Source of the DNA: Pirellulales bacterium
GTDB lineage: Bacteria > Planctomycetota > Planctomycetia > Pirellulales > JADZDJ01
Length of the DNA: 41,341 nt
Direction: 5' to 3'
Assembly: GCA_035656635.1 (NCBI GenBank)
Contig: DASRSD010000063.1
Span: forward strand, 1 to 41,341
Shown: piece by piece, positions 26,792 to 40,526 of the stretch
How the letters are laid out: each line of letters opens with the position of its first letter
Numbering within the stretch: position 1 is the first letter of the stretch
Made by a program: the position numbers and the translations under genes
Notes under the pieces: model-generated
The model's database searches: none
What the model saw: only the letters and a program-made list of their open reading frames with translations
Told to the model about the DNA's origin: nothing

Positions 26792-26864
26792 GCCCCCTTA
26801 GCTCAATTGGCAGAGCAATTGACTCTTAATCAATAGGTTGTCAGTTCGATTCTGACAGGGGGCA
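26792..26864 (+). tRNA. tRNA-Lys (anticodon CTT)
   Basis: Cloverleaf of 73 nt: acceptor GCCCCCT/AGGGGGC with discriminator A, D arm with AGCTCAATTGGCAGAGC, anticodon stem ATTGA/TCAAT with loop CTCTTAA (anticodon CTT), and T arm GTCAG-TTCGATT-CTGAC. CCA is not encoded. The gene is intact and forms the left edge of an integrated element whose integrase gene overlaps it on the opposite strand. Confidence 0.97.
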
Positions 26865-28210
26865 CTTTTGACAGGGAGTGACAGTGGATCGCGGACGGTG
26901 ACAAAATCGTTGTCATTCTTGGAGTTAGATTCGTTCGCAGCATCATCGAGGGCCGTTGTCGTTATGGCAGCCAATGGCGTCGATTGACCCGAAATGCCAT
27001 CGTCGATGGTCCAACTTTTGGTCCAATTTTTTGGGTCCATATTTGGCATGTCCGGTAGCGCTTCAACGCCGCCTTCCATATCATCCATTCTGAGCTTGGC
27101 GTAGCGGTCCATTGTTAGCGTGATTGTCGAGTGACGCGCTAGTTTTTGAACGATCTTCGGATGGACCCCGGCCAGCACCAAATTTGTGATGTATTGGCCG
27201 CGCAGCGCATGAAAATCGAACACCATGCCTTGCTTGTCTTTTTGGGCCAACGAATCGCTTTTTTCACGTGCTTCACGTTCCTGCGGGTCAATCGCTCCCT
27301 CAATCCAAGCCGTCCGGGCTGCATCCAAATCTTTGTGCAACATTTTGGCGGCGCGTTCGCACCACGTTCCCGGCCATAACTTGCCCTTTGGCATCCACTC
27401 TTTCAAAGCGGTTGCCAACGACCGTTGAAGTGGGAGGGTGGCCGGCTTGCCGTTCTTCGTGTAAGCGCCTTTAACCGTGACGGTCGGCTTCTGGCCATCC
27501 AACCTGAAATTGGCGTCGGTCAGACTGGCCATTTCTTCTTTGCGGAAGCCTGTACCGGCAGCCACGATGTAGAGCATGGCGCGGTCTGGGCCTGACGTTC
27601 CGCGAAATGGCTTCTGCTTGCGGGTGGACTCGATAAGCAAGTTGAATTCATCCTGCGAAAGTGCGCGGCGGTCGCGGCGAATATCCTCTTGCTGGTTGCG
27701 CTCTTTGACACTCTTCATCGGGTTCGATGGTGCGCCGCGTTTCTCAATCAACCAATTCAGGAAACACTTGAACGCTTTGACGTAGGAATTAAAGGAACGT
27801 AGCCCGAAACGTGGACCACGTCGCTCCTCCAGCCACTTTTCCACCTTGGTTGCGTCAATGTCCCCAAATAGCTGAATTTCGCAGCCCTCAATCATGCGCT
27901 CGATTGACGAAACGGTGGTCGATATGTAATCGCTGTCGAGCGATTGAACTTGCATGTACTCTTTGAAATCTTGAAGATGCTTTGACAACAGTGTGCTGCG
28001 ATGCCGCGCAAATGGGTCTGGTCCCTCAGCGGCTTTGCCTTCCAATTGTTTCGCAAGAGTGCTCGTTTTTTCCTTGCTCTTATAGCCGCGAACACGCTGC
28101 GGCTTGCCGTCGCCATCGGTGTATTTTATGTAATAGACGCGACTTTCGCTGCGAACTCGCTTGCCTTGCTTGTCGGTTCGCCAATATCCACGCTTGAAAA
28201 TGCTGGCCAT
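26798..28210 (-). CDS. Tyrosine integrase overlapping tRNA-Lys
   Basis: A 470-residue site-specific recombinase. The N-terminal arm-binding part (SESRVYYIKYTDGDGKPQRV) is followed by a SAM-like core-binding domain (~75-175) and the catalytic domain (~180-380). The latter has Arg223 in GTGFRKEEM, Lys near 252-255, His334/Arg337 in FHALRGQY, His360 in LARHSTITLT and Tyr370 in MDRYAKL. A long C-terminal extension follows. The last ~22 residues (…CQNRTDNLLIKSQLLCQLS) are encoded antisense to tRNA-Lys, and the stop lies inside the tRNA. The integrase thus reads into its own attachment site; after excision its 3' end would change. It should catalyse integration at the tRNA 3' part. Confidence 0.95.
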   Translation of the reverse strand: MASIFKRGYWRTDKQGKRVRSESRVYYIKYTDGDGKPQRVRGYKSKEKTSTLAKQLEGKAAEGPDPFARHRSTLLSKHLQDFKEYMQVQSLDSDYISTTVSSIERMIEGCEIQLFGDIDATKVEKWLEERRGPRFGLRSFNSYVKAFKCFLNWLIEKRGAPSNPMKSVKERNQQEDIRRDRRALSQDEFNLLIESTRKQKPFRGTSGPDRAMLYIVAAGTGFRKEEMASLTDANFRLDGQKPTVTVKGAYTKNGKPATLPLQRSLATALKEWMPKGKLWPGTWCERAAKMLHKDLDAARTAWIEGAIDPQEREAREKSDSLAQKDKQGMVFDFHALRGQYITNLVLAGVHPKIVQKLARHSTITLTMDRYAKLRMDDMEGGVEALPDMPNMDPKNWTKSWTIDDGISGQSTPLAAITTTALDDAANESNSKNDNDFVTVRDPLSLPVKSAPCQNRTDNLLIKSQLLCQLS

Positions 28211-28234
28211 AAGTTTGTCTCCGGTTGTTCCATT

Positions 28235-28420
28235 CTAGTTTCGACCTGCGTTCCGATACCACTGCTCCCAATCATCTCGGTCCCAAATCACTTTTTTTCC
28301 GAACCTCCGAGCTTCGGGAATTTGGCCTCGTCCCTCCATTCGCCAAATCGTGCGGGGATGGCAGCGGAGTCGCGCGGCAATATCCTTAACATCCAATGGC
28401 CGTGAAGTTTCAGTGTCCAT
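28235..28420 (-). CDS. AlpA/excisionase-like helix-turn-helix protein
   Basis: A 61-residue DNA-binding protein of the MerR-like/AlpA type. VKDIAARLRCHPRTIWRMEG is the helix-turn-helix, followed by the wing KKVIWDRDDWEQWYRN, which ends in the family's W-x-x-W/Y pattern. Such proteins act as recombination directionality factors or activators of int. It sits 24 nt upstream of the integrase start on the same strand, so it is likely co-transcribed, and it follows the large replication gene by about 110 nt. Confidence 0.88.
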   Translation of the reverse strand: MDTETSRPLDVKDIAARLRCHPRTIWRMEGRGQIPEARRFGKKVIWDRDDWEQWYRNAGRN

Positions 28421-28528
28421 TTCATCATTCCTTGTAAAAATATTTATGGTTCCTCAGATGCTGTGCGATCACCTTGCATAGCGCGTCCGTAGTAGCCGCT
28501 TATGAGCAACGGCATCCCAAGCAATTGA

Positions 28529-31345
28529 TTAAGATGCCAGCCGATGATCGAAAGTGTCACCGGAAGAGTTTGAGGCGCAGAGCGAGATCGCATCTGACTT
28601 TATAATGTTCACCTGGCCGGCTTTTTCCGAAGATTGCAGAGTGATTCCAAGGAAGCAGGGAATCCTTTTGTGATTTCTACTCTTCTTATTGGAAGTTATT
28701 CTGTCTCGGAAAAGATTTAGTAAATCTTTGGAAAACTGGCCTTTGCCAGTTTTTCCTCCATATCCGTGCTGCGATTTGGATCGCAGCCAGTCATTACAAG
28801 CTCGAAAAATTTTATTCTTTGAAACGCAACGATTTGGGATAAGGCGACACTTCGTCTCGACAAACGCTTTCAGGTTAATGGTCCGCACCGCCGAATTCTT
28901 GAAAGATGCTTCTTCTACGAGCATCTCCTGTTTTGTATGGATCAGACGATCCTTATTGGGCGTCCAAAGAACAGGCAGTCGTAAGCGTCCCACAATAGGG
29001 GGCAATTCCAGATCGAGCAGCGTCCGCATGAACGCCGGTGCTTCTTCCCGCAGCCGATCCATCAGGATCATCTTGGGAATTTCTTGATCCGGCTCTAGGT
29101 CGTAGACGTAGATCGAGGTGATCCGTGTGTCTCCCGGCAGGATCGGGCAAGCTCCAGGATCATTTGCACATTGAATCCAGTGCGTGGTGTTGGGCTGTTC
29201 ATAGCTGTCCGTTCGCATCTTGCGAATCGAGATCATTCGGCTCGTTACCCAATCCTTGATCTTGTTGTACGCGCCGCTGGATTTGCTGATGTCCTTCTCT
29301 TCCACGACACAGATGATTGCGTTGGCAAGTTCGCCACAGAAATCACCTTGGTTTGTGAGCGCCCTGTCTGCCCTCACCACTCCTTTTGTGATTAGCGCAG
29401 AAAGTGATTCGTGAAAGATCGACTTCCCGCAGTTCTGCGACCCATAAAAGAATAGATATGGCAACGGCTCGAACGGACAGCGGAAAGCGCAGGCGATCCA
29501 TGACTTCAAATAATCCTCGCCCGTCTGAACGCCAGCATTCTGTGCCCAGTCGAGCGTTTTGAGTGTGGCGGTAAGGTCATTCCCACAATGCTTGAGAATC
29601 TTATCCCAATGTGGATGATGAAGAGGTGTTTCATCCTCAATCGGGATGGGCTTGTAAACGAACTGCGCAGCGCCGAGATTCCATTGTCGATCGCCAGGAT
29701 ATTCATCTTGGAACGGCAGATTCACTAGCGTCCAAGCCTCACCGATTGCGCCGCCCAGAAGTGCTTTGACTTCCGATTCAGGAATGCTCAGGTTGATAAG
29801 TCGCATCTTCACCTTTTCAGTCGAGAAGCGTTGCCAAATTCCTTTCTTTGAACGCAGCATCCAGCCTGCATCCTCTTCTGCCGGCGTTACAAGTTGTCGA
29901 ATGACTTTGTCGTACTGATCGAATTGCGTTTCGTTGTGATTCTCTACGTCTAGCATCTTGAACACTTTCTCCCACCAGCCGCCGCGCTTCGATGCCCAGC
30001 CCTTCGGACGAGCTTCTTCCTTATCTTTGCGCTTGACAGCGAGAACGACTTGGCCGTCCTTGTTCTTGATGACGTGAGCTTCGCGGTCCTCCAGTTCTTC
30101 TGGCAACCGTACCGCCTCACCCATTGCCTCGATCACTTTGACGGCTTCTTTCGCGGTGTCGAACTCGAAGCCTCCCGCAGATCGTTCAGCGCCGCCCAGG
30201 GCGGACGCAGCTTCATCGAGGCTGGGCTTACGATTGAAATAGCAAGTGGTCCAGCCTTCTTTATCTTGCTGCCAAGACGGATGCTCGATTGAGCCTTTCG
30301 AGTAGCGATAAACTTTCCATGCTCCGTTGTCCAACGGATACATGAAACAGTTCTGTTCGCCAGGATTGCGGCCTTGCGAGTTGGTATTGAACATGCCTTC
30401 GATCTTGATCTCTTCAACGATCTTCTTCAACGCACAAGTGTGCGTTTGCAGCATGTGATGGTCGGGCACCCAAAATGTGGAATAGCCTGAACGTAGAAGT
30501 GCATCAATGACTGCTTTGTGTTTCTTATCTAGCGATGTCTTTTGCCTGCAAGATACGAGCGATTCAAACGCATCAATGTCCTCGGCATCTATGCCTTCCA
30601 CGCGAACCCTCGTTCTACTACGACTTACAACTTCAACATGATCCCGCCAGTTCGCGGGCAAGTCGGCTACGTTAAGCTTCTGTGTCGCGGCCTTGATGAG
30701 CATCAGCCCTTCATTGGCTGCTGACATCTTCCGATGCCAAATCCACATATTCCCACCGCAGGCATCAATCTGCGAAGCAAAGTCAAATCCTGTCTCGGTG
30801 GACATCAGACCCAACACCGCTCGGCCCAAGGCCGCGTGAACTGTGTGGTTCTCGGTCGGCACGCCCGCTTCATCGAAGTAGACGTAGAGATGCAGCCCTT
30901 TCCCACCCGTGCTCTTGCGCACTTCCACCCAGGGAATCTTGCAGGCGTTCTTCTTCACCGTATCCAGGTCGTCTCTGCTGATACCAATACCAGCAGCGTG
31001 TCCTGTAATGCTGTCGAAGTCGAAGCCAAGATGGCGCGACACGCGCTTCTTCCAATCCCAGCCGGTCATGCCGATACCTTCGGCGTGCAGGTCAAACGGG
31101 TACTTCAACGGATAGTCGCTGAACTCCGGTTCGCTGTAAGCGTTCTTCGGGATACGGATTGAATGCCACTCGTAGGTGCCATCCGTCCAGGTATTCTTCC
31201 GGTTCTCTACCGGTTCACCATTGCCAGGTGAAGCGTTCACCTGTGTTTCCATGTGCGGACCCCACAGCGCCAATAGCTCCGGCGCATTGTGCGTCGCTGA
31301 GCGAGCAGTGAGGAAATTGCTGAGACCTTCTAAGACTGTAGGCAT
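28529..31345 (-). CDS. Primase-polymerase/helicase replication protein (AEP plus DUF5906/D5-like)
   Basis: A 938-residue protein. The N-terminal half has archaeo-eukaryotic primase features: GFDFDS (Asp109, Asp111 as metal ligands) and KSTGGKGLHLYVYF (~144-157, His152), in a TOTE/primpol-like arrangement. The C-terminal half is an SF3/D5-like helicase: Walker A in FFYGSQNCGKSIFHE (~632-646), Walker B in ANAIICVVEEKDISKS (~675-690) and a sensor-like CANDPGACPILPGDTRIT. Primase and helicase in one chain are typical of plasmids, phages and satellites that prime their own origin. It probably starts replication of the excised element. The upstream 31346-31667 region carries palindromes and is the likely origin/control region. 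Confidence 0.9.
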   Translation of the reverse strand: MPTVLEGLSNFLTARSATHNAPELLALWGPHMETQVNASPGNGEPVENRKNTWTDGTYEWHSIRIPKNAYSEPEFSDYPLKYPFDLHAEGIGMTGWDWKKRVSRHLGFDFDSITGHAAGIGISRDDLDTVKKNACKIPWVEVRKSTGGKGLHLYVYFDEAGVPTENHTVHAALGRAVLGLMSTETGFDFASQIDACGGNMWIWHRKMSAANEGLMLIKAATQKLNVADLPANWRDHVEVVSRSRTRVRVEGIDAEDIDAFESLVSCRQKTSLDKKHKAVIDALLRSGYSTFWVPDHHMLQTHTCALKKIVEEIKIEGMFNTNSQGRNPGEQNCFMYPLDNGAWKVYRYSKGSIEHPSWQQDKEGWTTCYFNRKPSLDEAASALGGAERSAGGFEFDTAKEAVKVIEAMGEAVRLPEELEDREAHVIKNKDGQVVLAVKRKDKEEARPKGWASKRGGWWEKVFKMLDVENHNETQFDQYDKVIRQLVTPAEEDAGWMLRSKKGIWQRFSTEKVKMRLINLSIPESEVKALLGGAIGEAWTLVNLPFQDEYPGDRQWNLGAAQFVYKPIPIEDETPLHHPHWDKILKHCGNDLTATLKTLDWAQNAGVQTGEDYLKSWIACAFRCPFEPLPYLFFYGSQNCGKSIFHESLSALITKGVVRADRALTNQGDFCGELANAIICVVEEKDISKSSGAYNKIKDWVTSRMISIRKMRTDSYEQPNTTHWIQCANDPGACPILPGDTRITSIYVYDLEPDQEIPKMILMDRLREEAPAFMRTLLDLELPPIVGRLRLPVLWTPNKDRLIHTKQEMLVEEASFKNSAVRTINLKAFVETKCRLIPNRCVSKNKIFRACNDWLRSKSQHGYGGKTGKGQFSKDLLNLFRDRITSNKKSRNHKRIPCFLGITLQSSEKAGQVNIIKSDAISLCASNSSGDTFDHRLAS

Positions 31346-31667
31346 AAACTCTCTCCTAAAAAGTAACTAAAGTGGCCAGTTGTTGTTCCTTGATGTCCAG
31401 CATGGCCATGCTGGCTGGGTATTCAGATTTACTTAGTTAGATTGTGAAAAGTACGCTTGATAGCAAATACTTTTGTATAAATGTTTTCGGGAATGTGCCG
31501 TCCAGCGTGGCCAGCCAGGCCGGACACACGAGCGCCCCAAACAATTGTCTGGGAACCTGCGGCACGGGAGACAGCTTTGATCTATGCCTACCTGTCCCTA
31601 AATAAGGCACGGCATAGCGAGCTGAAGCGGGAACAAGACTGCTTGTCGCGTGATACACAAACTACGT
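31346..31667. promoter_or_regulatory. Palindrome-rich region upstream of the primase-polymerase: candidate origin/control region
   Basis: CCAGCATGG/CCATGCTGG at 31397-31414 is an 18-bp perfect palindrome. GTCCAGCRTGGCCA occurs at 31396-31409 (as GTCCAGCATGGCCA) and again at 31500-31513 (GTCCAGCGTGGCCA); TGGCCA also occurs at 31372-31377. Between them is an AT-rich stretch (31421-31490). Repeats beside an AT-rich segment and next to the replication gene are what an origin or an autoregulatory site would show; function is inferred. No gene is supported here. Confidence 0.5.
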
Positions 31668-32225
31668 CTAGTTATTTGCCGCACTCTGAACATTCGACAG
31701 TAGGTTCTCGTAGCATTCTGTATGTTTGCCCAAATCGTTCGGGCATTGAATGTGCTTCCAAATTCTCCTGGCACGTATGGACCGTATCGTTGACTCGCTA
31801 ACGCCAAACGTGCTCGCTAGCACATCTGCCGTAAGAGGAGAGGCAAGTATGAAACGGACATCTTTAGTGTTAAGAATTGCACTTACGTGCTGCTCGCCTC
31901 TGCACGATCGACCGCGCTCCACACGGTCGCGCACATTCTGTGCTGAATTACCAGCATACAAATGATTTGGATTAACACACTTGGGGTTATCGCATTTATG
32001 CAACACACATAAATGTCCTGGGTCCACACTGTGTTGTAGGAAATAAGCAATTCTGGGCGCACGGAATATCTTCCGTTTAATGCTCACCATTCCATATCCG
32101 CTTTGATATGTGGCTCCCTTCCAGGGCCAACATTCATTTGGAGAGCCTTGTTGCGTTTTCATATTGAAGCGGTCAATATCTATTTGTCGAAGTGCTGGAA
32201 GTGGAATGTTCATGTTAGCTTTCAA
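31668..32225 (-). CDS. HNH endonuclease (HNH_3 type) with C-terminal HTH
   Basis: A 185-residue protein. NECWPWKGATYQSGYGMVSI is the usual N-terminal strand pair of the family, followed by the zinc/HNH core LHKCDNPKCVNPNHLYAGN (~75-93) with NVRDRVERGRS. Residues ~115-160 resemble a helix-turn-helix (SPLTADVLASTFGVSESTIR) as in many homing-type HNH enzymes of phages. It could be a free-standing homing nuclease or part of the element's own packaging or defence. Start at 32225 (a second Met at residue 5 is possible). Its stop is 322 nt from the primase-polymerase start. Confidence 0.9.
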   Translation of the reverse strand: MKANMNIPLPALRQIDIDRFNMKTQQGSPNECWPWKGATYQSGYGMVSIKRKIFRAPRIAYFLQHSVDPGHLCVLHKCDNPKCVNPNHLYAGNSAQNVRDRVERGRSCRGEQHVSAILNTKDVRFILASPLTADVLASTFGVSESTIRSIRARRIWKHIQCPNDLGKHTECYENLLSNVQSAANN

Positions 32226-32866
32226 AGGAATAATTGTGAAAAGGCGCGTTGTGGATTGAGTGTTCGGAAATACGCAAGCGCAACCACGATGCCAGTCTGG
32301 TCAAAAAGCGAGTTGCTCGTTTACGCGCGAGTGTCTTCTTGAGATGAAGCCCGAGAGCTTCATGACCTACGCCAAATAAGTCAGCCGGGTAGAAGGGCAT
32401 CCCTGCCGAGCGGAAACACTTCTATTGGACGTGGATGAATGCAGTGATTCGGTCGGATTGGTAAAGCTCGTCCGTGCGTGAGATGTGTATACCCACGGCG
32501 ACAAAGCGAGCAGCGACACCGAACTCTCTTAGGGGTCTATCCCATCAAAGCTCTTTTTTGCCGTATCCGCTAGAAGTTTTCTCACATATCGCTGATCTGA
32601 ATACCGGATGTGTCGAAAGCTCCGCTTGCACCGGCTTCTGATCTCTCAATTCGGAACCCGACCGTCGTTGATCCGGCGATCAGAAACCAAACACGTCTGT
32701 GCAGCCCAGCGATTGTCTGGCTAGGCGATGCACATCCAGGTCGGCCTCTAACAGGGTCTAACCGGATCGCACCCCAATCCGCCACAATCCGAGTGAGAGC
32801 TTTTCATTCCTACTGAAATAAACTGACGGATACTCCGAACGTAGCGAAAACAATGCCGATTACGAA
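32226..32866. other. Intergenic region, no gene seen
   Basis: Between the divergent HNH and recombinase genes. A short minus-strand open frame (32215-32400) and plus-strand frames near 32610 lack family resemblance. The region may hold degraded sequence; nothing else is supportable. Confidence 0.5.
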
Positions 32867-32955
32867 TTTGACTGCAATTCAGAGGGAAAGCAGTCAAACC
32901 CGTGTTGTATTTTGCCTAGTTTGAACTAGGCTTACAGTAAAGCAGTTAAATTCGT
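32867..32955. promoter_or_regulatory. Dense repeat cluster in front of the short recombinase: candidate recombination or operator site
   Basis: TTTGACTGC (32867-32875) and GCAGTCAAA (32890-32898) form a perfect 9-bp inverted repeat. AAAGCAGTCAAACCCGT (32887-32903) recurs as AAAGCAGTTAAATTCGT (32939-32955). Between them lies GCCTAGTT/AACTAGGC (32914-32931), a perfect 18-bp palindrome with TG at the centre. All lie within 105 nt upstream of the recombinase start at 32971. Inverted core plus direct arms is the pattern of a recombinase-binding or crossover site. Confidence 0.55.
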
Positions 32956-32970
32956 TAGGGAGGCCCCATT

Positions 32971-33594
32971 ATGGGCAGTTGGACAGTCAACCGCAGCAAA
33001 GTGCTGACTAAGGCAGAAATCCTGGCCGTTTTAGGCGATCTGAAGCGCAAATCTCGCCGATCTGCAAACACGCACATGAACCTTGTGCTGTTCCGTCTCG
33101 CCTGCTGTTGCGGCTTGCGGGCGAGCGAGCTAATTCGTCTGGCTATGGATCACGTGCGAGTGGGCAGCACTAGCCCCAGCATCCGGGTCCCGAAAACCAT
33201 CGGAAAGGGTGCCAAAGCGCGGGTGGTGCCGCTCTCGTTCGATCAAGGGACTCTCGACGATCTGAGGGCATGGAAGCAGCTTCGCACCGAGCAGGGAGCC
33301 ACTGGAAGCGACCTTTTTATCTGCTCATTGAGCAAGGGCAGTATCGGGAAACAGATCGACCGGCGAAATGCCCGCAAGCGATTCAAAGCCAGTTGCCGAA
33401 TCCTGGGGCGTGAACGGCAGGATGAAATTACGATTCATCATGGGCGACACTCTTTCATTTCCCACGCGCTCCACGCGGGTCGCAGCATCGTTGAAGTAAA
33501 AGAAGCCGCCGGTCACTCGTCGCTTGGTACGACTAGCCTTTACAGTCACTTGGTGAGCGATGACGACGGAATCGTCGGAAATCTTTTCGCATGA
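32971..33594 (+). CDS. Short tyrosine recombinase (catalytic domain only)
   Basis: A 207-residue tyrosine recombinase. Catalytic residues in order: Arg in CGLRASELIRLA (~52), Lys in GKGAKARVVPLS, HHGRHSFISHAL (His-x-x-Arg), His in AGHSSLGTTS and Tyr in LYSHLV. The N-terminal core-binding domain normally present in XerC/D and phage integrases is missing; only ~30 residues precede the catalytic domain. Possible roles are a solo recombinase that uses the repeat cluster in front of it, or a truncated enzyme. The AGGGAGGC before the ATG supports expression. It points away from the first integrase. Confidence 0.9.
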   Translation: MGSWTVNRSKVLTKAEILAVLGDLKRKSRRSANTHMNLVLFRLACCCGLRASELIRLAMDHVRVGSTSPSIRVPKTIGKGAKARVVPLSFDQGTLDDLRAWKQLRTEQGATGSDLFICSLSKGSIGKQIDRRNARKRFKASCRILGRERQDEITIHHGRHSFISHALHAGRSIVEVKEAAGHSSLGTTSLYSHLVSDDDGIVGNLFA

Positions 33595-33638
33595 TGGGTG
33601 CGCATCCGCTATGGCCTGGGAGAGTCTACGTTTCGTGA

Positions 33639-34106
33639 GTGCATCAGGAATCTGCGGAACCACGGCAAAATCATAACTATTGGGACCAATTGTTCGAGGC
33701 TTGTGATGACCAACGCGACTGGTTGAAGAATTGGGTCGCGGAAGCCATCAACCGTCCCACTACGAGAACTCCCGCCGTAATCCTGACGGGTCGAGAGTCC
33801 GCGCAGGGGACATTGATTCATCAAGCTATTGCGAAGCTGTTGACTCCAAGCATAGCGTCGCATCGTTGGGCCTCTTGCCTTCAAGCAGCAGAGGTTCCAG
33901 AGATGCGCTTAGTATCATGGGAAGCAGGAGCCGGCTGGCGCGTTCCCCGAAGCGACCGTGTGCGCCTTAACTTGAGACTCTTTCGGGAACGTATTGAAGT
34001 TGTGGAAGGTCCGTTTGCCTACCAAGTAAATGGGCCGCGTGAGCCTGAATATGGCGGCTGGACTGGACGTAGTCGTCTGCACGTATGTAGTTTAATCAGC
34101 GCCTAG
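33639..34106 (+). pseudogene. Remnant or diverged paralogue of the element's helicase part
   Basis: A GTG-started frame of 156 codons. Residues ~12-70 align by eye with the helicase of the large replication protein: YWDQLFEAC (HWDKILKHC there), DWLKNWVAEAI (DYLKSWIACAF), and ILTGRESAQGTLIHQAIAKL (FFYGSQNCGKSIFHESLSAL). The P-loop Lys-Ser has become Gly-Thr, so ATP binding is doubtful. The remainder (VPEMRLVSWEAGAGWRVPRS…) has no counterpart there. It is far shorter than any working helicase of this kind. It could be a decayed fragment or a small regulator; I favour decay. Confidence 0.5.
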
Positions 34107-35486: not shown

Positions 35487-35518
35487 AAAAAAAGAGGAGC
35501 GCCGAACTAGGCCGCTCC
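35487..35518 (-). terminator. Rho-independent terminator (minus strand)
   Basis: Stem GGAGCG/CGCTCC with an inner CC/GG pair and a TAGTTC loop, followed on the minus strand by TCTTTTTTT (A-run 35487-35493 on plus). It would end transcripts coming from the dnaE2 side before the 34119-35474 gene. Confidence 0.8.
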
Positions 35519-35631
35519 CTCAAGCCCCGCCAGGGGCCGCAGAAGAACAGCACTAGCCGACGCTCCCTTACGGGAGCGCGGTCAGCACTGCTTCTTCTGC
35601 TAGAGTCGTGAGACTCTATCTGGCGGTTTTT
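35487..35631 (-). ncRNA. Putative structured small RNA ending in an intrinsic terminator
   Basis: Read on the minus strand there are four hairpins in a row: TAGAGTC/GACTCTA (35601-35618); a long bulged stem 35539-35600 (outer GCAGAAGAA/TTCTTCTGC, inner CGCTCCC/GGGAGCG with a GTAA loop, and an AGTGCTG repeat in both internal-loop sides); GCCCC/GGGGC (35524-35537); and GGAGCG/CGCTCC (35496-35518) followed by TCTTTTTTT. The last is a good Rho-independent terminator. The whole unit fits a small RNA of ~130 nt or a structured 3' UTR of the imu operon. No homology to a named RNA family is recognised. Confidence 0.5.
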
Positions 35632-35935
35632 GAGGGAAGCAGATTTAACGCACGCGCGTCAATCAAGTTGTATTCAGAGCCTAATCGTGGCTTGTTTTTG
35701 GTTCTCCGAGGACTGGGAAATTGACTCACTTGGAAGTCTAGCTCATTGCCGGCAGTCCTGCTACTTTGGATCGGGTGATCGCCGACGGAGTGTCGTTCAT
35801 CCGGCTAAGTTAGTGGGAGCGAGCCTGGATGGCCGTGAATTTTTCGAGTATGACGGCTGAGGTTCTGAGATCAGGGCTGTTCGGTTCTGGGGTGCTCTGG
35901 GGCCAATGGTTCGGCAGCCAGTCTAACTTGCGGCA
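35632..35935. other. Noncoding spacer downstream of dnaE2
   Basis: About 300 nt between the structured segment and the dnaE2 stop. A plus-strand open frame (35630-35860) has no recognisable features. Nothing else is visible. Confidence 0.5.
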
Positions 35936-38900
35936 CTATTGAAAATCCCGCGATTGTGAGCGAAGTTCATTCAGCCGCTCGTTCATGTTTTCCAAGCGTG
36001 AAACGAGAACATGAATGACGCCTTGTTGGTTCTGCAATCGGCCACTGGCGATGAAGGCCGGCGCAGTGCGGGCTACGGAATAGAATTTCTCCCAAACATC
36101 CATCCGAATGATGAGATTCGCTTCCTTGGTTTCATCTTCAATCGTGACGAAAGTTATCCCCTTGGCTGTGCCGGGCCGCTGACGGACCAAAACCAATCCA
36201 GCGACCCGCACAAATCTGCCATCTTGCAGCGCTGCTAACTGCGCAGCCGGCACTACACCCAACTGGTCCAACTCTCGACGGAAGAATGAAACCGGATGCG
36301 CTTTGAGTGACAAACCCGCAGTGCGATAATCGGCAAACACTTCCGACCGCGCGTCCATCACAGGTAAGTCGATTGGCGCTTCGCCATCATACAAACCGTC
36401 GAACAAGGGGCAGACCCCCTTTGTCGTTGCCGGCAATAACGCCTGCCACAACGAAGCTCGACGATTCAGTTTCAACGATCCGAACGCATCGGCTCTTGCC
36501 AGCCGTTCAACGATACTCGCAGGCACATTCCCTTTGAATTCATCCATCGACCGGAACGGTTGTTGTTGTTCGATCCGCGATGCTTGCGATTGCGAAAGGC
36601 CAACGACCATTCGCAGCCCCAAACGGATTGCGTTGCCTTCCAGTGTGCAATCCCATCGACTGTAGTTCACGTCCACGGGTTGAACATCAACGCAATGCTC
36701 CTGTGCATTTCGCACGAGTTGCGCTGTACCATAAAAGCCCATCGGCTGACTGTTGAGTAGCGCCACGCAGAACGCCGCCGGATAATGGAACTTCAACCAA
36801 GCCGAAACATAAGCGATCAGCGCAAACGACGTGGCATGGCTTTCCGGGAAACCATATTCGCCAAAGCCACGAATTTGACGAAACACCGTTTCGGCGAATT
36901 GATCTGATAACCCTTTCTCCTTCATTCCTGCGATTAACCGCTGATGAAACTGCTCGATTTCTCCCGGTCGTCGCCAGCCAGCCATCGCTCGTCGCAATTG
37001 ATCGGCTTCGCCTGGCGTGAATCCAGCCGCGACAATCGCAAGTTTCATCGCTTGCTCTTGAAATAGCGGCACGCCCAAAGTTTTGTGCAACACTTCGCGG
37101 ATTTCATCGTTGGGATATTCAACCGTTTCGCCACTAGCCCGTCGTCGCAGATACGGATGCACCATATCGCCTTGAATCGGCCCGGTCTAACGATGGCAAC
37201 CTCAATTACGAGGTCGTAAAATTTGCGCGGTCGCAGTCGCGGCAACATACTCATTTGCGCCCGACTTTCGATTTGAAACACTCCCATCGTGTCGGCGCGG
37301 CAGATCATGTCGTACACGCCGTTGTCTCCTTCGGGAATATCTGCCATTGAAAGTTTGCGATGGTGATACTGCTCCACAAGGTCGAAGCATTTATGAATCG
37401 CGGTGAGCATCCCAAGCGCAAGACAATCCACTTTCAAGATGCCAAGTTCGTCCAGATCGTCCTTGTCCCACTGGATCACCGTGCGTCCATCCATCGCGGC
37501 ATTCTCAATCGGCACCAGCTCACAGAGTGGACCTTGCGTAATCACCAGTCCCCCGACGTGTTGTCCCAAGTGGCGGGGAAAGCCGAGTAGTTCGCCTACC
37601 AAGCCCAACAGTTGCCTGCCGACTTGCGATTGCGGATCAATCCCGGCAGCGGCGCAGCGCTGTTCGGGCAACGTACTGTGCCTATCGAGAGTTTTTGCCA
37701 GCGCATCGACTCGATCCAACGACAGTCCTAATGCCTTGCCTACGTCTCGCACGGCGGAGCGGGGCCGGTATGTAATGGCTTCGGCGGTCATGCCCGCTCG
37801 TTCGCGGCCATACTTTTGGTAAACGTATTGAATGACCTCCTCTCGGCGCTCGTGTTCAAAATCCACGTCGATGTCGGGCGCTTCGTTGCGTTCGCGCGAA
37901 ATAAATCTTTCAAATAAAACGTCGATCCGTTCGGGATCAACGGAGGTCACACCCAGGCAATAGCAAACCGCTGAGTTGGCTGCTGATCCCCGACCTTGGC
38001 AGAGAATGTTCCGCGAACGCGCGAAGCGCACCAAATCCCACACGGTCAGGAAATACGCTTCATACCGCAATTCGACGATCAGCGCCAGTTCGTGTTCCAG
38101 AAGTTGTCGAACCTTCGCTGGAATGTCATTGGGATACCTCTGCCGAGCGCCGTCCCAAGTGAGCTTGGTCAAATGTTCCAGCGGCGTCTGCCCGGCTGGT
38201 GCCAATTCTTCCGGGTATTCGTAGCGCAGCTCGTCCAATGAAAACGTGCATCGGCTGGCGACTTCGATGGTTCGCCGCATCGCGTCGGGCGCACGAGCGA
38301 ACAACTCCTGTATTTCTTCCGGCGCTTTCAAGTGCCTAGCGGCATTGGGGTACAAGAGTTCGCCGGCGTCAGCCACAGTGCAACCGTGGCACGTGGCAGT
38401 CAGTACATCAGCCAGCGCCCGCCGCGAAGGATGATGAAAATGCACATCGTTGGCCGCGACCAAGGGCACACGAGCTTGTTTGGCCAAGTGCATCCGCTGT
38501 TCTAGCTCGCGCTCGTCGTTTGGCCCCCGATGCAATTCAGCTAATAAGTAACAGCGATCCGCAAACAATTCACGGTAACGGAAAAGATCGTGCCGACTGA
38601 CTTCGCCAGCGACAGTGGCGAGCAACCCTTCCGCATGACCGGCAAGCTCATCGAACGACAGCCGGAATTCACCTTTGGGAGCATTGCGCCGGCCAATGGT
38701 TATCAAGCGGGAAAGCCGACCGTAGGCTTTGCGATCAGTGGCTAGCAGAACAACCGTAGAGGCATCGACAAGAGTGAGTTCAGTGCCGAACAGCAATTTT
38801 AATTGTGCTTGCTTGGCCGCTCCGTGCGCTCGCACGATTCCGGCCAAACTGTTGCGGTCCGTAATCGCCAGCGCCCTGTATCCAAGTTCGGCGGCACGAC

Positions 38901-39042
38901 AGACAAGTTCGTCAGGATGCGAAGCACCTTCCAGAAATGAGAAATTGGTTTTGCAATGGAGTTCGGCGTAGGGAATCGCCGCAGGTGCGCTTGTTGTGGC
39001 AGCTTCGAGCGGCCTACGTTTGCTTTCTGGTTTGTCAGGCAT
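35936..39042 (-). pseudogene. dnaE2: Error-prone DNA polymerase III alpha subunit DnaE2, one-base frameshift
   Basis: The C-family polymerase that, with ImuA and ImuB, carries out mutagenic bypass in bacteria lacking UmuDC. It would be ~1035 residues if joined. The true start is the ATG at 39042, overlapping the imuB stop (TGATG). The PHP domain begins AELHCKTNFSFLEGASHPDE; the palm has GRGSAANSAVCYCLG and PDIDVDFEHERREE with the catalytic Asp residues, then SYRPRS-type RDVGKALGL. The C-terminal half has an OB fold (FVRVAGLVLVRQRPGTAKG) and ends SRDFQ. Near 37179 the expected VRPGPIQGDMVHPYL is broken: one G is missing from the plus-strand run in AATCGGCCCGG. The first frame then runs out at 37045; the second is open 35936-37165. 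Everything else looks intact, so a recent mutation or a sequencing error is likely. Confidence 0.93.
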
Positions 39043-40526
39043 CAGTCGAATACCCCATGCAAGAACCATTTGGCATCCGATAGCCGGCGAAACAACCAGA
39101 AGCGTCTGCCCGTCGTCGTCTCGATCCGGTAGTAATCGCGCTGGACGTAACGGCCGCGCCACCACCCAGTTTGGATTCGCTCTGGTCCCCAAGTGCGAGC
39201 GACTCGTTGCAGACCGTGGAAATGAAATTGGATGGGCGGACCATCGGGCACGACCGACAGCACTTCCAGCGGAATGGGTTCGGCTTCCAGCCACAATGGT
39301 CGCGGCAACTGCTTCCAGCGCTGCTGTTTTGATTTGCGTGGCGGCACGCCAGCCAGCGGTTCGTAGCGAAACGCCAATTCCGGCTGGGCCTCGGATTGTG
39401 GCACCGCGCGAATGACCGATTCGCGCCCGAGCCGATTGCTGAGTCGATCCACAAGCAAGCCAACTTGCCGCCTCCCTTCACGCCGCGACGGCTCGAAAAG
39501 TTCCGGTTGCCAGGTTTGCAAACGAGCGGCGAGCGGCACTGATAATTTGACTGCGGTTACGGGACCACCGAGTACAACTCGTTCCAATCGCATTCGCAAC
39601 AGGTCGAGCAAATGTTTTGGATCGGCACTAGCCCGGAACAAACCCGCTTGTATTTTGAGTGGCTCGGCATCTTCGCATCGGAATTGACATTCCAACTGGA
39701 TTGCTCCCTGCTGTCGCTGCGCCAATGGTTGTGCGACACGCTCCACAAGTTCTCGGAGAATAATGTCAACCGTCTGTCGATCTTCGGTAGGATATTCCAA
39801 CTCGATTTCTGTTGTGATTTCTGGCAGGGACCGATGTGATACAATTGTTTCGGGAATTAAGCCTGTGAATTGGTCCAGCCGACGTAAAAGCAGCGGATCA
39901 AAACGGGAGGCTATCGCATTGCGTGGCAGTTTCAACAGTTGGCCGATTCTCTCAACACCTAACTCAGCGAGAATCTCTGTTTCTTCAATGCGCAGGGAGG
40001 CAATGGGCAAATCGACCAGTGCGTTCATTTCGCCGTGCGGCACAATGCCGGGACACTCGCCATAGTGTGCTACGGCCCATGCGGCCCCAAGTGTGTCCGC
40101 AATTGCAACTCGAATCGAAAGACCACGACGATGCGATGTTTTGACGATTTGTTGGGCAAGCAACGGCTCCCCGCCGAACAGTGACCCCAAGCCTGTCACG
40201 TCCATACAAAGATTGTCCGGCTGTTCAATGCCGACAATCGGGCTGAACTGTTCGCACCATGCGGCCAGCAATAAGAGCGTCGCCTGATCGGCCAGCGGAT
40301 CATGCTGTTCAAAGTGAGCGGCAGCCAGCGCCGTCGCTTCGGCCAATGGCATTCCTAGCGGAATGTTTCGCTTGCTGCTGGCGACTACTCGCAGGCAACC
40401 ACGGTGCAGTGCATACAAAATCAGTTCGCGGTGCCTAAGCTCTGGCCGTGCTAGGCGCAATCGCTGCAATGGCCATTGAGGGAGCCAGAGACACAGTGCG
40501 CGATTCTTGGAGCGTTCCCGTTTCAT
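39042..40526 (-). CDS. imuB: ImuB, inactive Y-family polymerase-like mutagenesis factor
   Basis: A 494-residue protein from the ATG at 40526 (KRERSKNRALCLWLPQWPLQ; CLWLPxWP is the family's first strand). An upstream extension to 40730 has no family resemblance. Y-family-like motifs: CMDVTGLGSLFGGEP and RVAIADTLGAAWAVAHYG. The canonical acidic catalytic set is absent, as is known for ImuB, which acts as a hub that binds the beta clamp and DnaE2. The C-terminal part (WWRGRYVQRDYYRIET, RRFWLFRRLSDAKWFLHGVF) is typical. It overlaps imuA by 92 nt and dnaE2 by 1 nt (TGATG), which points to translational coupling. Confidence 0.93.
   Translation of the reverse strand: MKRERSKNRALCLWLPQWPLQRLRLARPELRHRELILYALHRGCLRVVASSKRNIPLGMPLAEATALAAAHFEQHDPLADQATLLLLAAWCEQFSPIVGIEQPDNLCMDVTGLGSLFGGEPLLAQQIVKTSHRRGLSIRVAIADTLGAAWAVAHYGECPGIVPHGEMNALVDLPIASLRIEETEILAELGVERIGQLLKLPRNAIASRFDPLLLRRLDQFTGLIPETIVSHRSLPEITTEIELEYPTEDRQTVDIILRELVERVAQPLAQRQQGAIQLECQFRCEDAEPLKIQAGLFRASADPKHLLDLLRMRLERVVLGGPVTAVKLSVPLAARLQTWQPELFEPSRREGRRQVGLLVDRLSNRLGRESVIRAVPQSEAQPELAFRYEPLAGVPPRKSKQQRWKQLPRPLWLEAEPIPLEVLSVVPDGPPIQFHFHGLQRVARTWGPERIQTGWWRGRYVQRDYYRIETTTGRRFWLFRRLSDAKWFLHGVFD

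Follow-up and report, generated by a model that had tools for sequence, protein, structure and literature searches.

What does the dense cluster of hairpins at positions 35487-35631 encode, on the minus strand of the stretch of DNA analysed here? This stretch, referred to below as the window, comprises 41,341 nt (forward strand, positions 1-41,341 of contig DASRSD010000063.1 in the Pirellulales bacterium assembly GCA_035656635.1). The original prediction suggested a small RNA, a packaging signal or a processed 3' UTR of the imu operon. Judged by comparison of its sequence with relatives, the cluster is one copy of a dispersed, conserved family of RNA leaders, and a small RNA is not the best reading of it.

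The motifs that had drawn attention to the locus are all present on the minus strand: the TAGAGTC/GACTCTA hairpin, the GTAA tetraloop (35571-35568), the GGAGCG/CGCTCC pair, the two copies of AGTGCTG, which lie opposite each other within the long stem, and the seven Ts at 35493-35487. The segment 35480-35640 folds at -90.1 kcal/mol, whereas 200 dinucleotide shuffles gave -59.6 kcal/mol (sd 4.07; z = -7.5), and none of them folded as well. The four stems exist, but not in a simple row as had been described: the lowest-energy fold is multi-branched, its outer helices CCCTCAA:TTGAGGG and CCGCCAG:CTGGCGG surrounding two inner hairpins. The element also extends beyond 35487-35631, homology reaching to about 35671 and adding one hairpin and a conserved ACAAYTTGA. 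The remark that the segment is too elaborate for a simple terminator was apt, this is a conserved, elaborate RNA with a terminal U-run.

The RNA family and its distribution

A blastn search with 161 bases found homologues at E ≤ 1e-5 in 16 of 96 other genomes, often several per genome, and the alignment of 30 extended copies revealed one conserved RNA from ACAAYTTGA through the U-run. Two decayed copies (L050 and L024) were removed before the first structural alignment, A1, which holds 24 of the remaining 28 and omits L038, L042, L048 and L049. The covariance model R1 (24 sequences, 176 positions) was run on three sets of genomes. In the order, 76 of 396 genomes carried matches, 141 in total; in the draws from the class and from the phylum, 87 of 397 and 28 of 392 genomes did so. 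Six of these 28 lie outside the class, and it must be noted that the three draws overlap. There are up to seven copies per genome. The genome of the window has four, the further three being at G000:C136:107-282, G000:C160:31665-31831 and G000:C45:8858-9040, the last with a 3' half that does not align. Searches of one genome of the same genus and one of the same family gave no copy. Tandem copies about 650-700 nt apart were seen at L046 (2964-3837) and L136 (1853-2663), one member of each pair scoring far below the other (62.9 and 46 bits, respectively).

The counts given below refer to a set of 120 copies, all from the order of the window. It was derived from 127 matches, reduced to 122 by leaving out four re-fetched places and one antisense fragment, and to 120 by dropping two identical copies (L023 and L164). 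Those of the 141 matches that fall outside the set are mostly weak, but L061, for example, is also among them. The copies L187-L207 and L209 from the class and phylum searches are confirmed by R1 and stand outside all counts.

A pattern scan of named genomes gave at least 119 stretches, and 25 of those listed hold an R1 match above 100 bits; the sensitivity of the pattern is low (it recovers 23 of the 120 known copies), and several of the 25 are likely to be assemblies already contained in the order, class or phylum draws. Among the matches listed, 23 of the 25 are labelled as Planctomycetota or a group of it (the labels include Pirellula, Rhodopirellula, Planctomyces, Schlesneria, Gemmataceae and other Planctomycetota) and two as Verrucomicrobia (L236 and L291); the latter are metagenome-assembled genomes, and their copies may be due to misbinning. 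One further stretch among those listed (L307, Planctomycetia) has an R1 match of 34.3 bits, and the remaining ones were taken as chance matches. Two of six pattern-matched viral contigs of IMG/VR passed R1 (L329, 1218-1402; L333, 4698-4871). A recombinase lies near the copy in L329, and a gene resembling virion structural proteins near that in L333. A blastn search of plasmid and phage records gave no match at E 1e-5. Neither the window element nor five relatives had a match in Rfam 15 at the gathering score, and for the window element relaxing the E-value brought up only matches of E 2.8 or worse, all below the gathering score.

Genes, promoter-like sites and the U-run

Most copies lie in the 5' leader of a gene of the same direction. 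The nearest downstream gene was in sense orientation in 109 of the 120 copies and antisense in 5; five more copies were too short and one gave no call. These calls come from a hexamer-score script rather than a standard annotator, applied for the orientation count to the downstream DNA only; stricter score cut-offs gave 101 to 9 and then 85 to 17, and a looser first count 111 to 6. The nearest upstream gene had the same direction in 68 copies and the opposite in 42 (7 too short, 3 without a gene). The independence of gene orientation expected of a trans-acting small RNA was not observed. From the 111 sense genes we kept 101 (at least 40 aa, start within 250 nt); 82 of these start within 100 nt of the model end, the median being 42 nt. 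In the window the candidate target is the gene at 35474-34119, encoding a protein of 451 aa, the start codon of which lies 12 nt past the U-run.

The 3' arm of the terminator is followed by a run of Us, seven in the window (35493-35487). At least five Ts in 8 nt were present here in 117 of the 120 copies, against 5 of 118 at a control position. Upstream of the RNA, the promoter pattern TTG-N3-N16-19-TAnnnT was counted as a regular expression in 116 of the 120 copies, four with short upstream DNA being excluded. It started between -152 and -99 in 48 copies and between -71 and -41 in 25, i.e. in 73 of 116 altogether, with two more copies between these positions; an equal-sized control stretch gave 3 of 116. 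In copies with the nearer site, the conserved ACAAYTTGA would lie at about the start of transcription. The window copy is missing from the 73 because it has one mismatch in the -35 element, and a generic sigma-70 scan gave no promoter in the window. A candidate promoter placed by eye at 35763-35735, consisting of TAGCAG (35763-35758), a 17-nt spacer and TAGACT (35740-35735), has a spacing near that of the relatives, and transcription of the window copy would probably start near 35728. The conserved 5' segment of the family is represented in the window by ACAACTTGAT (35671-35662); of 116 copies, 85 have ACAAY no more than 13 nt from the model start. We also considered a leader peptide encoded between the promoter and the RNA. 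Several copies do have short ORFs there, ATG-NNN-ACA-ATT-TGA for example, but not consistently, and the idea was dropped.

Searches with the 101 downstream proteins matched 70 Pfam families. The best 25 of the 70 include the LuxR-type HTH in nine proteins, GYF_2 in five, dynamin, DnaG-type and esterase-like domains in three each and kinases in two. No shared downstream function emerged from these 25 families or from PHROGs, and no single pathway: the RNA precedes regulators, dynamin-like GTPases, GYF-domain proteins, primases, kinases and small proteins without known function, and several of the genes are very short. The 451-aa protein of the window had no Pfam match, and its first 400 residues no PHROG match. 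In L039 (3209-3484) the RNA is followed by a gene for a small protein, ubiquitin-like as judged by eye, and then by what we take to be an E1/ThiF-like protein; this may be a ubiquitin-like conjugation operon.

The gene downstream of the window copy is close to the end of what looks like an integrated island (26792-34106), with a tRNA-Lys, then a tyrosine recombinase (28210-26798), a DUF5906 protein (31345-28529) and a second recombinase (32971-33594). On the other side there is an imu-type mutagenesis cassette (41193-35936) with an IMS-family protein and a DnaE2-like DNA polymerase III alpha subunit. The DnaE2-like gene is split over overlapping frames (37045-39294 and 35936-37165), the finger domain being cut between them, possibly by a frameshift. 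The idea that the RNA is the processed 3' UTR of this operon is unsupported, because in relatives the RNA adjoins other genes and mostly has its own promoter-like site at a fixed spacing. Nothing we saw favoured a packaging signal either, all confirmed copies except two being on bacterial contigs.

Two incompatible folds

Covariation was counted in alignment A2, with 99 model-aligned copies (98 distinct); 28 rows of a further alignment (A3) were not counted. It must be noted that the counts are not independent, since some copies are close relatives. The 5' part of the RNA forms hairpin B (TGACGC-GCGT-GCGTTA, 35661-35646), with changes on both sides at four of five pairs in 24 copies, followed by strand a (CTGCTTC, 35642-35636). 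The helices of the multi-branched arrangement, which we call fold A, are supported by the relatives. P0 joins CCCTCAA (35636-35630) to 35523-35517 (95.3% paired in the 98 distinct copies, both-side changes at six of seven pairs), Pc joins CCGCCAG (35626-35620) to CTGGCGG (35533-35527; 97.5% paired, both-side changes at six of seven pairs), and the hairpin Pb (TAGAGTC-TCAC-GACTCTA, 35618-35601) is 97.3% paired over the relatives. The 5' strand of P2, CAGAAGAAGCAG (35599-35588), contains strand b (GAAGCAG, 35594-35588), its 3' strand together with strand c is GTGCTGTTCTTCTG (35553-35540), and P2 is 92.8% paired. The arms of the GTAA hairpin are s1, CGCGCTCCC (35580-35572), and s2, GGGAGCGTCGG (35567-35557), which are about 99% paired (98.9-99.0%). 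Strand s3, contained with the 3' strand of P0 in TTGAGGGAGCGGCC (35523-35510), has its partners upstream in fold A, among them part of strand a.

The alternative, fold B, consists of a:b (92.3% paired), c:s3, a CCC:GGG hairpin in which the 3' strand of Pc lies, and s2 paired with s4, CGGCGCTCC (35504-35496), the 3' arm of the terminator, along with Pb, which is shared. Folds A and B cannot coexist, since s2 is claimed by both s1 and s4, b by both a and c, and s3 likewise by a and c. Fold A (P0, Pc, Pb, P2 and s1:s2) is paired in 95.9% of the A2 cells and has 660 double-change cells against 166.9 in shuffles; for fold B the values are 93.5% and 165 against 48.1, and in neither case did any of 500 shuffles reach the observed number. 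The alignment was fitted to fold A, a bias that favours A and not B; Pb was counted under both folds. When the partners were slid by 1-3 columns as a control, pairing fell to 39.5-51.9%. The original prediction had proposed beforehand that compensation in relatives be checked, and the outcome of this check was strongly positive.

The terminator is the point where the original prediction has to be amended. GGAGCG/CGCTCC, which corresponds to s3:s4, can form in the window, but it is not the partner choice that has been conserved: mean pairing over the 99 copies is 82.6% for s3:s4, the lowest of three options, compared with 96.9% for s2:s4 and about 99% for s1:s2. At least 85% of the s2:s4 pairs are possible in 91 of the 99 copies. 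We rejected s3:s4 as the conserved stem for this reason, as well as s1:s3, for which no compensation was seen, and a pairing between s4 and hairpin B, which is kept at 82.4% and shows no sign of compensation.

The evidence for a switch is strongest in s2, one base of which covaries with two partners. Across s1-s2-s4 the copies carry either T-A-T or C-G-C, in 16 and 63 of 99 copies at one position and in 49 and 28 at the next; this was seen in several taxonomic families as well as between copies within single genomes. On a tree built without the tested columns, s1, s2 and s4 all change at one position on nine branches, and all nine end paired both ways, whereas the s2 column of this position co-changes at most five times with any of 91 comparably variable columns. 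The neighbouring triple position is weaker, s2 and s4 co-changing on six branches, within the range of the control (maximum 8), and the other three positions tested on the tree had no triple-change branches. Comparative support for both folds, together with the triple covariation, argues for mutually exclusive terminator and antiterminator folds. As comparative evidence for an RNA switch, covariation across three strands is unusually direct, and it leads to clear predictions for mutants.

Some features of the folds call for caution. In computations on the isolated RNA, fold A was more stable in 93 of 99 copies, by a median of 12.2 kcal/mol; with a difference of about 12 kcal/mol the RNA could simply sit in fold A unless kinetics or a factor intervened. 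Strand s4 is paired with hairpin B in two of three fold-A models (L012 and L021) and is hence not free in every copy. Within fold B, a:b lacks one of its two end pairs in 14 of 98 copies and the other in 15, the CCC:GGG hairpin is 87.2% paired, and c:s3 shows a modest excess (91.1% against 87.0% in shuffles).

A candidate attenuator, its alternatives and known systems

The combination of a same-direction gene and a promoter-like site with a U-run and two strand-sharing folds points to a transcription attenuator, and two exclusive folds, one with a stop signal, just 5' of a gene suggest that the RNA is probably an on/off switch of that gene. We consider it likely that the element acts in cis on the gene at 35474-34119, as a riboswitch-like bistable attenuator in the 5' leader of that gene. 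With a start near 35728 the leader would be about 240 nt long, and the nascent RNA would adopt one of the two folds. Formation of a:s3, b:c and s1:s2 (fold A) would keep s4 from forming the terminator stem, and polymerase would read through. Formation of a:b, c:s3 and s2:s4 (fold B) would create a long rod-like stem abutting the seven Us, and transcription would stop 12 nt ahead of the start codon. We assign the ON state to fold A because only fold B closes the long stem at the U-run. The choice between the folds could be made by a small molecule, an ion, a protein or the speed of the polymerase.

How do other explanations compare with such an attenuator? A gene for a trans-acting small RNA that has a promoter and a terminator of its own, and to which the neighbour downstream is a bystander, would fit the promoter-like site and the U-run of the relatives, and up to seven copies per genome would suit a multicopy small RNA. 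We regard it as unlikely, because the copies are directly 5' of same-direction genes, the sense genes starting close to the model end, and because an exchange of upstream strands controls the 3' stem; in a plain small RNA it is hard to see what a conserved alternative fold that removes s2 from s4 would do. The RNA could instead modify RNA polymerase so that later terminators are ignored. Such processive antitermination would be in line with the diversity of the downstream genes and with the copies on two viral contigs, yet the conserved U-run and s2:s4 at the 3' end of the RNA suggest control of its own terminator, and the very short genes downstream of several copies also speak against it; we give it only a small chance.

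Finally, the pairing could stem from the inverted repeats of an insertion cassette or of the end of a mobile DNA element. The dispersed and patchy copies, four in the genome of the window and none in the searched genomes of the same genus and family, are what such an element would leave behind, and so are the decayed copies. This explanation is nevertheless very improbable: there are many G-U pairs, valid on one strand only, compensatory changes fall in internal helices, promoter-like site and U-run are at fixed places, and plasmid and phage records gave no blastn match.

It is quite possible, although less likely than not, that the family is a new, genuine riboswitch class, largely of Planctomycetota, which would respond to a global signal (a second messenger, stress metabolite or ion), act on many unrelated accessory genes, spread with islands and phages, and couple a ring-like exchange of a, b, c and s3 to the competition of s1 and s4 for s2. 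Conserved bistable RNA leaders usually mark a signal that is worth the control of many genes. The trigger, once found, would show one of the inputs to which regulation in Planctomycetota responds and would open a way to genes without known function.

It is useful to compare the RNA with known systems. Processive antitermination leaders, such as the put RNA of phage HK022, the EAR element and the targets of LoaP, work on terminators at a distance and are not known to centre on an alternative terminator of their own. Our RNA resembles them as a leader that would promote read-through in phages or accessory loci, but differs in having its own alternative terminator. A possible earlier sighting is Rhodopirellula-1, an ambiguous candidate in Table 1 of Weinberg et al. 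2010 (PMC2864571), where it is entered with '?' as RNA, 'y' as cis-regulatory and '?' as switch, and with neither a function nor an Rfam accession. Going by this table entry alone, it is likewise a possible cis-regulatory RNA of Planctomycetes, and the two may be the same family, but Rhodopirellula-1 is also listed for Proteobacteria (PMC2864571). For our RNA no proteobacterial pattern match passed R1 among the matches listed, which is a weak negative because the pattern recovers 23 of 120 known copies. In the accessible parts of the best-ranked matches from the literature on planctomycete riboswitches and non-coding RNAs we found no description of the two-fold mechanism.

Transcription-terminating riboswitches, such as those of the SAM-I, TPP and c-di-GMP classes, offer another comparison. 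Like them, the RNA is a 5' leader with a junction of helices, a terminator and an antiterminator that share strands, and a U-run before the gene, and it would work like a riboswitch of the terminator type. Unlike the known classes, it lacks an Rfam match at the gathering score, and unlike most metabolite riboswitches it precedes genes without a common function. The architecture is also different: here the stem of the terminator recruits one of the strands of an inner hairpin, and partners are exchanged in a ring among a, b, c and s3.
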